In this document: positions 7,756 to 47,717 of the stretch, piece after piece
Position numbering within the stretch: the stretch's first letter is position 1
Layout of the letters: each line of letters begins with the position of its first letter
Assembly (NCBI GenBank): GCA_005954745.1
Contig: CP040678.1
Location: forward strand, 1,612,001-1,676,000
Source of the DNA: Halostella pelagica
GTDB taxonomy: Archaea > Halobacteriota > Halobacteria > Halobacteriales > Natronoarchaeaceae
Reading direction: 5' to 3'
Length of the DNA: 64,000 bases
Translations under genes and position numbers: made by a program
The notes under the pieces: generated by a model
Databases searched by the model: none
What the model saw: only the letters and a program-made list of their open reading frames with translations
Told to the model about the DNA's origin: nothing

Positions 7756-7826
7756 GCGCCGGTGGTCTAGTGGTAGGACCTGAGCCTTCCAAGCTCATGG
7801 CCCGGGTTCAAATCCCGGCCGGCGCA
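7756..7826 (+). tRNA. tRNA-Gly (anticodon UCC)
   Basis: The cloverleaf folds cleanly. The acceptor arm GCGCCGG (7756-7762) pairs with CCGGCGC (7819-7825), and the discriminator A is at 7826. The anticodon stem TGAGC/GCTCA (7781-7785/7793-7797) holds the loop CTTCCAA, giving anticodon TCC at 7788-7790. The T-arm CCGGG/CCCGG (7802-7806/7814-7818) holds TTCAAAT. CCA is not encoded, which is usual for haloarchaea. It reads GGA/GGG glycine codons. Just upstream (7693-7706) is a partial copy of its 5' end. Confidence 0.96.
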
Positions 7827-15388: not shown

Positions 15389-15555
15389 GCGTCGAACTCG
15401 GGTATCCTCTGATACAAAGGCTTTGAAAGACGAATACCATTGATGCGTGGTACCATACGGCGGTTTTCCGGCGTAGCGCAGTCGCTACACTCCCCTCTCA
15501 GCGACGGGACAGAGGAGACGGGAGAAATCCGAGAGACGAGTTTCCGGACTCAGAG

Positions 15556-15624
15556 GAACTTGTAATTCAGTTCTGTAATTCGCCGACGCGAGGTCGGCGA
15601 ACACCGGCATACAGTTACAAGGGC
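15556..15624 (+). repeat. Dispersed palindromic element, copy B
   Basis: This is a nested palindrome. The outer arms are CTTGTAA (15559-15565) and TTACAAG (15615-15621); the inner hairpin is CGCCGAC (15581-15587), 5 nt, GTCGGCG (15593-15599). It aligns along nearly its whole length with the reverse complement of 45449-45518: both share TTGTAA, TCA, TTC, TCGCCG, GGTCGGCGAA, ACCGG and ACAGTTACAA in the same order. It sits 5 nt beyond the stop of the minus-strand regulator gene, so it may act as its terminator. The rest of the 15389-15628 spacer contains only the flavoprotein promoter. Confidence 0.75.
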
Positions 15625-15628
15625 CCCC

Positions 15629-16162
15629 TCAGTGTTCAGGGTCGCCAGCCGGAGCTTTCATGCCCTCGATACGCAGGATGAGGATGTTGCTGGTGTCGTC
15701 CTTTCCGTCGACGATGCCGTCGACGACGAGTTTCGAAAGCGGCGTCGGGCCGACGGTCACGGCGTCGCCCTCGTGGAAGTCCCGGACGGAACCCTGAAGG
15801 TGGATCTCCGCGCGGCAGAGTTCGGGGTGGTGAACGCTGCTGAGATCGATCTCTTCGACGTTAGCGTCTTCGACGGGTTCGCCCTCGTGCTGAAGCGGCA
15901 CGGCCGCGGGCTCGTCCATCTGCTGGATCTCGAGCGCCTCGTACGCCGTCGCGGTGGGCTTGTAGCCGCCTTTCGGCCCGGGCACGCCCTCGACTAGCTG
16001 GAGCGCTTTGAGACTCTGCATCTGGTTCCGGATAGTCCCCGGGTTCCGGTCGACCTCCTCTGCGATGTCTTCGCCTTTGACGGCGTCTTCCGTCTCCCTG
16101 TGGAGATTAATAAGTGCGTTGAGAATTGTTTTCTGACTGGGCGTCAGTTCGATCGATGACAT
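15629..16162 (-). CDS. HTH transcriptional regulator with C-terminal sensor-like domain
   Basis: This 177-residue protein starts with a winged helix (TPSQKTILNALI..GEDIAEEVDRNPGTIRNQMQSLKALQLVEGVPGPKGGYKPT, residues 6-68) of the Rrf2/MarR-like kind. It ends with a beta-rich domain (about 95-177) that ends GMKAPAGDPEH. The family is conserved in haloarchaea, but I know no tested role. A frame extension to 16303 is rejected: from the ATG at 16162 a TTAAA box (16188-16192) lies 26-30 nt upstream, a very good leaderless promoter. Copy B of the palindromic element follows its stop. Confidence 0.8.
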   Translation of the reverse strand: MSSIELTPSQKTILNALINLHRETEDAVKGEDIAEEVDRNPGTIRNQMQSLKALQLVEGVPGPKGGYKPTATAYEALEIQQMDEPAAVPLQHEGEPVEDANVEEIDLSSVHHPELCRAEIHLQGSVRDFHEGDAVTVGPTPLSKLVVDGIVDGKDDTSNILILRIEGMKAPAGDPEH

Positions 16163-16388
16163 GCCGAAACCTTCGTAATTGATTTCCTTAAATCCGACGG
16201 AAAGCCCGTTCTTCGGGAAAATTGGCGGAGAACGGTCATCGTATCCGACTGATCGGTACCGGGCGGTCGCGGTAGTTTCTCCAGTCATTTCCCAAAGCGA
16301 CACGTTACCGAGGAAACGGGCCGAACGGGAGACCTATCAGTGCGGTTAGAGCGATAGCCATTTGGCGGTGGCCGTCGGTTCCGCGAAC

Positions 16389-45405: not shown

Positions 45406-45448
45406 CACAGAGCCCCGGGAGCGGGCATCGCGGTCGTACTCCTTTAGA

Positions 45449-45518
45449 GACTGTTGTAACTGTGGACCGGTATTCGCCGACCCGTGACGGCGACAGGCCG
45501 AAATGACTTACAACAGTC
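45449..45518 (-). repeat. Dispersed palindromic element, copy A
   Basis: GACTGTTGTAA (45449-45459) and TTACAACAGTC (45508-45518) are perfect 11-bp arms. The interior holds the smaller stem TCGCCG/CGGCGA. Read on the minus strand it aligns with 15556-15624 in order and spacing (see copy B). It lies between convergent genes, 30 nt beyond the stop of the minus-strand Bat-type regulator, so it may terminate transcription from one or both sides. Confidence 0.75.
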
Positions 45519-45548
45519 CCTATCAGGGGGTCGGTCGAGGCACCGACG

Positions 45549-47717
45549 TTATAGCGACCCCTCGTGGAAGAGTTTCTCACAGAGTTTCCGCTGGGCCGCG
45601 CGGAGGTGGTTGTTGAACGTCGGCTGAGAGATACCCATCGACTCGGCGACTTCGACTGCGGTGCGCTCGCGCGGCGTCTCGAAATACCCGCCGAAGTATG
45701 CAGTCTGAAACGCCTCTAGCTGGCGGTCAGTCAGCGCCTCGGTCAGCGAGGCTCGCAGTCCAGTGGTCGACTGGTGGGGGCGTTCCTTGTTCCGCTGGGC
45801 GACCAGTTCCGAGTTCTGATACTTCGTCTGAAACATGTCGACGAACTCGCGGATGGCCGCATCGGCGGCTAGGTCGACCGTCACTGTGGCGACCCCGTCT
45901 TCAACGTACAGTTTGTGCATCCGTCCGCCGTGATCCAGCACGGTCGTTGCGAGGCTCTCGGCGGAGAGGTCAGCCTCGAACAAACTGATTCGAACGCCGT
46001 CTTCCTCGTATTCAGAGATCACAGTGAGGTCGAACGCCGGGAAGCGGTGGGTGTATTCGAGGACGTCGTCCGCCGGCACCCCGCGCGTCGAAAAGAAATA
46101 CCGAACCCCGCCGGCCGACCGCGGGACCACGTTGTCGACAGTGATATCGCAGTCGAGGTCCCGAGCCAACTCAACGAAGGTGAGAGAAGAGTCAGTTACG
46201 GAGAACCGCAGTCTCGTGATCTCGTCGTTTACGAGCGCCTTCTTGCTCTCGACCGCGTTGATGGCGTACGCGATGGTGTCGGCCAACTCCGTCAGTACAG
46301 TCTGTTCCAGTTCGTTGAACACGCCGGATTCCCCTGCGTAGACGTTGAGGACACCGTACAGCGTGTTTTCGTAACTCAACGGCAGCGCAATGGTGGCGTG
46401 GTAGCCCCGTTCGAGCGCCTCCTGACGCCACGGACCCAGCGAACGGTCTACGACGACGTTGTTGACGACCTGAGGTTCGCGTGTCTTCACCGCCTCAGCG
46501 GTGGGGTTTTGCGTCTCAGGGAGGTCACCCACGTTTAAATTGACGTTTTCGAGGAACCCCCTCTCGTCGCCGGCGAACTCCCGGGGTGAGAGTTCTTCGG
46601 CCATCGCATCGCGTTCGCCGACCCAGGCGAGTTCGTACGGACCGACGTCCGCCAACTGTTCGCAGACGACCGTCTCTATCTCCTGTCTGGTGGACGCCTG
46701 AACGAGCGACTGAGCGATGGTCCGAATGATGTCGTTGACCCGGTTCAACCGTTCGAGCGTCTGGTTCTGCGCTTCGAGCGTTTGTTCTCTCTCGTACAGT
46801 TCCCGTTCGCGGTCCACCCGGTCGAGCGTGGCCGTAACGTTTCCGGCGACCGTTTCGCCGAACTCGAAATCGGTCGCATTGAACCCGCCGGACTCGGTCG
46901 CCCCCGTTATGAATACGCCGTGTTTCGAGAGGGGGAAGATAGCCAACTCGGTAGCCAACGGGTGATCCGGACTCTCCCCGTCGTCGGGCGGGACGGATAC
47001 GCGGCGCGTGTCGTTCTCGATGAACGCCTTCCAGCCGGACCCCTCGCCGATGTCGAGTATCGAGGTGTCACGCAAGACCTCTGCGGCGTCGTCCGTCATC
47101 CTGGACGGGCGGAGGTCGCCTTCCTGGTCGTCGTAAAGGGCGATAGCCGTCACGGGGAGACCGAGCGTCTCCGCGGCCGCCTCGACCACGAACTCGCTCA
47201 CCTCGTCCGCCGTCTCGGCGTCGGTGAGGGCACGGTTTAGCGTGTTGAGCGCTTTCAGTTGCTCGTGTCGTCGCGTCCGGTCGCGTTCCTGACGGTTCCG
47301 CTCGATAGCGTGGTGGATCGACCGAACCAGCAGGTCGCTCGTCACGTCGTCTTTCACGAGGTAATCCTGTGCGCCGTGCTGGATCGCCTCGATCCCGACC
47401 TGCTCGTCGCGGAGTCCCGTGAGGACGACTATCGGGACGAACTCCGTCGCATCGACCATCGTACTGAGCGTGTCCAGACCGGTACTTTCCGGCAGGCCGA
47501 GGTCGAGGAGGACCACGTCGATATCGGAGTCAGTCAACCGTGCGAGGCCGTCGGAAATGCGCTTTTCGTGGTAGATCCGCGAACCGTTTGCAGTTGTCTG
47601 GCCGAAGTCGACACGCTGAAGCAGTTCCTCCGCGTTTCTGAGCATCTCTTCGAACAGTCGCGCGTCCCCGGGGTTGTCTTCGATCAGGAGGACGTTGAGC
47701 GCGTCGGAAGAACTCAA
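45549..47717 (-). CDS. Receiver-GAF-Bat/HTH_10 regulator
   Basis: This 722-residue protein starts with a response-regulator receiver domain (residues 8-125) with acidic pocket IEDNPGD and phospho-acceptor D72. GAF-type sensor domains follow (about 150-300 and 330-480), with a coiled-coil linker between (about 300-330). The Bat-type module and HTH_10 helix-turn-helix (TDRQLEAFQTAYFGGYF..., about 655-722) end the protein. Such proteins are haloarchaeal transcription factors of the bacterio-opsin-activator type. Its start overlaps the stop of the upstream response regulator by 4 bp, so phosphorelay control is plausible. The signal is unknown, and no histidine kinase is beside it. Confidence 0.9.
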   Translation of the reverse strand: MSSSDALNVLLIEDNPGDARLFEEMLRNAEELLQRVDFGQTTANGSRIYHEKRISDGLARLTDSDIDVVLLDLGLPESTGLDTLSTMVDATEFVPIVVLTGLRDEQVGIEAIQHGAQDYLVKDDVTSDLLVRSIHHAIERNRQERDRTRRHEQLKALNTLNRALTDAETADEVSEFVVEAAAETLGLPVTAIALYDDQEGDLRPSRMTDDAAEVLRDTSILDIGEGSGWKAFIENDTRRVSVPPDDGESPDHPLATELAIFPLSKHGVFITGATESGGFNATDFEFGETVAGNVTATLDRVDRERELYEREQTLEAQNQTLERLNRVNDIIRTIAQSLVQASTRQEIETVVCEQLADVGPYELAWVGERDAMAEELSPREFAGDERGFLENVNLNVGDLPETQNPTAEAVKTREPQVVNNVVVDRSLGPWRQEALERGYHATIALPLSYENTLYGVLNVYAGESGVFNELEQTVLTELADTIAYAINAVESKKALVNDEITRLRFSVTDSSLTFVELARDLDCDITVDNVVPRSAGGVRYFFSTRGVPADDVLEYTHRFPAFDLTVISEYEEDGVRISLFEADLSAESLATTVLDHGGRMHKLYVEDGVATVTVDLAADAAIREFVDMFQTKYQNSELVAQRNKERPHQSTTGLRASLTEALTDRQLEAFQTAYFGGYFETPRERTAVEVAESMGISQPTFNNHLRAAQRKLCEKLFHEGSL

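Follow-up and report, generated by a model that had tools for sequence, protein, structure and literature searches.

A family of short, MITE-like hairpin transposons in haloarchaea, frequently inserted at stop codons

Introduction

Why does one nested palindrome recur, in diverged form, near the ends of two regulator genes of Halostella pelagica? The question arises from a 64,000-nucleotide stretch of this genome (contig CP040678.1, positions 1,612,001 to 1,676,000), referred to here as the window, in which a sequence-only reading had pointed out two copies, A and B, and had suggested a mobile miniature element, an RNA-level terminator or processing site, or a protein-binding site. We report that the element is transposable, and that it belongs to what appears to be a large and widespread MITE-like haloarchaeal family, new as far as the searchable literature shows, with unusual insertion at stop codons and a mobility-linked hairpin. 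The family provides a concrete case in which the target motif of a transposon coincides with stop codons, so that a 3-bp duplication repairs the insertion damage. Its unannotated 80-bp insertions alter 3′UTRs and gene ends, and annotation pipelines may misread them.

Copies A and B in the window

Both copies were matched by two covariance models, the first built from 11 home-genome copies that share outer arms and the second from 29 diverse relatives. Copy B, 76 bp long with the ends GAGGAACTTGTAA...TTACAAGGGCCCCC, occupies 15553..15628 on the plus strand and scored 81 bits with the first model and 49.2 bits (E 1.7e-10; match span 15550-15631, plus) with the second. Its outer ends are partly decayed, and its inner hairpin, TTCGCCGAC-gcgag-GTCGGCGAA at 15579..15601 on the plus strand, forms a perfect 9-bp stem according to sequence and fold. 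Copy A, 78 bp long with the ends TAGAGACTGTTGTAA...TTACAACAGTCCCTA, lies at 45445..45522 on the minus strand, scored 87 bits with the first model and 68.2 bits (E 1.5e-15; match span 45442-45525, minus) with the second, and bears an inner hairpin of TCGCCG/CGGCGA plus loop at 45474..45493 (minus strand; sequence and fold). The shared blocks first noticed in the sequence are present in both copies in the order described, and the outer inverted repeat and inner hairpin are borne out, with folds that surpass those of shuffled sequence by a wide margin in both copies (z about −3.2 to −4.9). An unfiltered scan of the window with the 29-relative model matched copies A and B only. No curated Rfam family matched the element in the window scan, in which the sole Rfam match is a tRNA gene at 7756-7826 on the plus strand.

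The sequence-only reading gave slightly narrower limits for both copies and placed them just beyond the stop codon of a minus-strand regulator gene; limits and placement are corrected here. Copy B is flanked by the two copies of its 3-bp target duplication, on its distal side by TCA at 15550..15552 (sequence and covariance-model match; no strand assigned) and on its gene side by a second TCA at 15629..15631, which on the minus strand is itself the TGA stop codon; the assignment follows from the ORF end and from the same stop position in four element-free congeners. The gene that it closes (15629..16303, minus; start uncertain, at 16288 or 16303) encodes a winged-helix regulator of the HrcA-DNA-binding/Rrf2-like type (Pfam PF03444 HrcA_DNA-bdg, E 2.7e-37). 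Copy A, on the other hand, follows the TAA stop (45549-45551) of a BAT/HTH_10 regulator (Pfam PF15915/PF04967) after 23 nt; it retains one TCA at 45523..45525 (minus strand, from sequence), and the distal flank has decayed to CTT at 45442..45444 (sequence and covariance-model match; no strand assigned).

A dispersed family in the Halobacteriales

A pattern taken from the inner hairpin occurs at 13 places in the home genome, and in 11 of these the outer arms are shared as well. Searched with the first model, the 3.94-Mb genome yielded about 77 distinct places at E<=1, with E values that are almost all far under 0.01. Both copies of the original description are thus real, and the count of two has to be raised: they are members of a family of about 75 copies dispersed across the genome, so that a lack of further copies, named at the outset as grounds for refutation, does not apply. 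With the second model the element was found at E<=1e-6 in 41 of 117 sampled Halobacteriales genomes and in 22 of 48 genera, with per-genome counts in several of these genomes that are lower bounds, and none was seen outside the Halobacteriales in a phylum-wide genome sample. One genome, G111, holds at least 180 terminal-repeat matches, and judged from this number some haloarchaeal genomes probably carry about 100 copies. Haloarchaeal DNA is GC-rich, and two ordinary GC-rich hairpins might look alike by chance; the copy number, the target duplications, the covariance-model matches and the stem covariation described below leave this explanation a negligible probability.

Two plasmid records match the element, and one home-genome copy has exactly the sequence of a copy carried by a Salinibaculum litoreum plasmid. 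Carriage by phages or viruses was dropped as a candidate, since phage records and viral contigs gave no match. A Mobilitalea sibirica match to the pattern of the terminal inverted repeats (TIRs) was judged coincidental, being an AT-rich hairpin without TSA flanks.

Anatomy of the element

The consensus of 79-80 bp reads TSA, TASGGACTGTTGTAA, GTCATT(T/N)CCGG, an inner hairpin of about 25 nt, CCGGTAAACAGTTACAACAGTCCSTA and TSA. It contains three tiers of pairing, namely 15-bp TIRs, a middle CCGG stem and the inner hairpin, and is too short for a transposase gene, with no coding capacity. In young copies the TIRs match at 13-15 of 15 positions. Between genomes the TIR sequence varies, and the internal box (GTCATT-CCGG / CCGG-TAAACAGT) is better conserved.

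The interior is variable in several ways. The inner loop occurs both ways round relative to the outer arms (ACGGG vs CCCGT, e.g., L015 versus L018), with 18 home copies in the "flip", 7 in the "flop" and 7 in neither orientation, which suggests inversion by hairpin replication or recombination, by analogy with the flip/flop of viral terminal hairpins. In home copies L063 and L083 the arms are similar but enclose an unrelated inner hairpin (CGACCGCACG..CGTGCGGTCG), and further different inner hairpins are found in Natronomonas and Halorientalis (L161, L162). L165 (2001-2109, genome G046) is a 109-bp form that keeps these terminal repeats around a different interior, and a nearly duplicated gene end (GACGACTGA...GACGACTGA) lies ahead of it.

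Target duplication, empty sites and target motif

The flanks of the element carry the signature of transposition. Among 40 young, near-identical copies from genomes G111, G108 and G102, the 3-bp flanks are identical in all 40, as TCA/TCA or TGA/TGA. The 70 home copies show the same two pairs or versions decayed on one side, and an intact TCA opposite an intact TGA never occurs among them. Around the duplicated TSA, the 40 recent insertions show preferences for G, W and C on both sides, defining a 9-bp palindromic target, GWC-TSA-GWC. Models of a group II intron, a BHB intron or an attC site were dropped in view of this clean 3-bp duplication with its symmetric target.

Congeners preserve empty sites. 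At locus L027 all four congeners lack the element, and their sequence matches the joined flanks contiguously (86% over about 421 bp), the duplicated position holding just one stop, TGA or TAG. Contiguous matches to joined flanks were also found for L020, L014 and L067 in one or two congeners, and at the copy B locus the element is absent from all four congeners, which retain the identical TCA stop. The option of a mobile miniature element is thereby upheld by target duplications, empty sites, bursts of identical copies and a dispersed family.

Some insertions in G108 are compound. At L222, L223 and L224 the first element contains a second one, again a hairpin (TACTGCCGGCTGTAA...TTACAGCCGGCAGTA and variants), inserted at the same site with a TAA direct repeat. 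The resulting 160-bp composites still bear outer TCA duplications, which indicates that element length is not critical. At L224, two elements share one TCA (TCA-E1-TCA-E2-TCA).

Insertion at stop codons

Of the 70 home copies, about 47 (50 with looser edges) sit exactly at a stop codon, nearly always TGA, according to gene calls from a home-made codon-usage finder that accepts any stop codon. The expected share is lower: stops make up 12.8% of the comparable motif sites in non-coding DNA (another count gave 36 vs 266), a figure that rises to 20.7% after weighting by the target motif, against which the excess in the home genome has a binomial p of about 7e-17. Young copies lie at stops in 13 of 40 cases by gene calls and in 16 of 40 by in-frame coding score, a weak excess over the motif-weighted expectation (p 0.055-0.004), so active stop targeting is not needed. 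An initial view of strict stop-codon targeting was weakened by these young copies and by the motif-weighted background.

The target GWC-TSA-GWC overlaps a common haloarchaeal gene end (...GAC TGA), and the element therefore often splits the stop codon and regenerates it. Among 45 cleanly read stop copies the gene-side TGA is intact in 42 and the distal TGA in 17 (p 2.5e-8), an asymmetry that is partly built in, since a stop codon is required for membership of the class, though any stop was accepted. The gene's own TGA thus persists as the distal one erodes. The simplest reading of the stop bias is motif overlap at insertion together with longer survival of insertions that rebuild the stop, to which extra active targeting may be added. 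Such targeting, by which the mobile element would be directed to stop codons or 3′ ends through transcription or translation termination or a host factor, beyond the DNA motif, would suit the 47-50 home copies at TGA stops against 13-21% expected, as well as the 13-16 young copies. We nevertheless regard it as rather unlikely, because the palindromic motif accounts for part of the bias (5 of 10 strong non-coding motif sites are stops) and because stops account for a smaller share of insertions in young bursts than in the home genome (33-40% vs 67%, p 0.009), a difference that gradual enrichment of stop insertions by selection would produce, bearing in mind that different genomes are compared.

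Two loci deserve mention here. At L037 (1500-1600), decay has turned the gene-side TGA into AGA, and the reading frame is closed instead by TAG, the first codon of the element; the terminal TAG can in this way provide a fallback stop. At L056 and L058 the element sits in the stop codons of two genes that appear to be homologous (common C-terminal motif AINYYRF...GKWxSIS).

Hairpin covariation and decay

Pairing is maintained between lineages. Across the 29 relatives, 20 of the 27 pairs have changed on both sides; double-changed cells number 127, compared with 44 after shuffling, and sliding the pairing partner destroys this signal. The covariation includes the inner hairpin, whose sequence is wholly replaced in some lineages. 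Among the home copies, on the other hand, single changes dominate, with 264, 109 and 129 in the outer, middle and inner stems against 32, 2 and 10 compensated ones. The compensatory changes anticipated in the stems are present between lineages. In the outer stem of the home copies, compensated changes do exceed shuffles (32 vs 16), to which inherited subfamily differences (TAGGG/CCCTA vs TACGG/CCGTA) contribute.

These patterns bear on whether the host maintains the element as an RNA signal, such as a bidirectional transcription terminator or an mRNA 3′-end stabiliser. The strong hairpin, its covariation between lineages and the position at gene ends, with only 2 of 70 home copies in divergent intergenic regions, are what such a signal would look like. 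Against it stand the perfect 3-bp duplications and empty sites, the many copies away from gene ends in recent-burst genomes, and the decay of stems in individual copies, where stem-breaking single changes far outnumber compensated ones. In addition, sense-strand mismatches are about equally often G.T (90) and A.C (80), giving no clear RNA-strand-specific wobble bias in home-copy stems. A host-maintained RNA element is accordingly very improbable, and the terminator or processing-site option of the original description finds no support. Because stems covary between lineages and copies decay without wobble bias, hairpin pairing looks necessary for mobility and not for terminator function; the hairpin appears to be kept in active lineages and to drift after insertion, under selection on mobility and not on host RNA.

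Mobilising enzyme and proposed mechanism

No transposase-bearing element with these ends was found, as judged by inverted TIR pairs of IS length, in the home genome or G108 or among the G111 matches listed. In G108 every terminal repeat could be assigned to a 79-bp element, a 160-bp element or a remnant, and in other genomes TIR partners within 2 kb of the matches occur at element length only. The sole long pair, 1,384 bp in the home genome (G000:C1:1484366-1485749; L081, 1508-2891), was rejected as a transposase carrier, as it is an 80-bp element split by another insertion with the ends GGCTCTGTTGAAA and an 8-bp direct repeat, AAATGACT. The coding content of this insert is a small helix-turn-helix-like protein and some membrane-protein-like ORFs, with no obvious transposase, and its ends are reminiscent of IS6-family elements.

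From the dispersed copies, 3-bp duplications, empty sites, palindromic target, recent bursts, exact TGA-stop insertions and covariation of outer and inner stems, we consider it very probable that the element is a non-autonomous, MITE-like hairpin transposon of about 80 bp that is mobilised in trans. Almost wholly one imperfect hairpin, it would be moved by a putative, probably DDE-type, transposase, which would insert it at GWC-TSA-GWC and duplicate the central TSA (TGA or TCA). The stop bias would then arise from overlap of the motif with the gene end GAC-TGA and from the harmlessness of stop-rebuilding insertions, which would make them the longest-lived, and hairpin pairing, the inner stem included, would be kept for mobility rather than for a host function. 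As a lead on the transposase family, a 3-bp duplication with a palindromic target recalls what we take to be a trait of IS5-type (IS1031/ISL2) or IS30 elements, a duplication of 2-3 bp at a palindromic target, and the element shows it as TSA within GWC-TSA-GWC.

Alternatively, the element might move as a folded single strand, in the manner of IS200/IS605-REP or integron attC sites. The whole element is a hairpin whose inner stem covaries, which is more than terminal-repeat recognition alone would require; yet IS200/IS605 and attC reactions are not known to make target duplications, whereas 40 of 40 young copies have one, and we judge this route quite improbable beside a DDE-type transposase. 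A bolder proposal, speculative and on balance unlikely, is that of a pan-haloarchaeal transposon lineage without a TIR-matched autonomous partner, in which the enzyme would read the folded hairpin (structure and internal box) instead of a fixed TIR and regenerated stops would serve as a safe harbour. The young bursts in G108, G111 and G102 offer a direct way to test which enzyme mobilises haloarchaeal mini-elements that lack a partner, and whether that enzyme reads a DNA hairpin.

Relation to known elements

Several known systems share features with the element. REP/BIME elements, associated with RAYTs, are likewise small extragenic palindromes that often follow stop codons; REPs, however, measure 20-40 bp and are not known to make a target duplication, and the present element makes one. 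By mechanism the element is MITE-like: as in prokaryotic MITEs (Tourist-like, RUP, Correia/NEMIS), it is short, bounded by TIRs (here of 15 bp), flanked by a target duplication (here fixed at 3 bp), multicopy and dispersed with empty sites in relatives, and without coding capacity. It departs from them in that no autonomous partner was found, that nearly its full length is a covarying hairpin, that its TIRs differ between genomes more than its internal box does, and that it frequently inserts exactly at stop codons. A 2024 review on MITEs of prokaryotes does not mention stop codons, according to a term search, and cites haloarchaeal MITEs from Halobacterium and Haloquadratum only (PMC10969869). 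No description of the family was found in the literature searched, a search to which most subscription papers and ISfinder were external.

Within the haloarchaea, the IS605-derived PATEs of Haloquadratum are also palindrome-bearing and transposase-free, but they lack TIRs and target duplications (PMC3119063), both of which are present here. The closest described kind is the small mobile repeats (SMRs) of Haloquadratum walsbyi, SMR-A and SMR-B, elements of about 100 bp with prominent TIRs unrelated to known transposons, no transposase and an enigmatic mobilisation (Dyall-Smith et al., 2011, PMC3119063). The two kinds have in common their haloarchaeal host, short length, prominent TIRs, lack of a transposase and strong target preference. 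By their description, SMRs are nevertheless set apart: SMR-As, about 110 bp long, leave their target unduplicated and enter palindromes of IS605-type elements (PMC3119063), whereas the present element is about 80 bp long, duplicates 3 bp (TSA) and prefers GWC-TSA-GWC sites, stop codons included.
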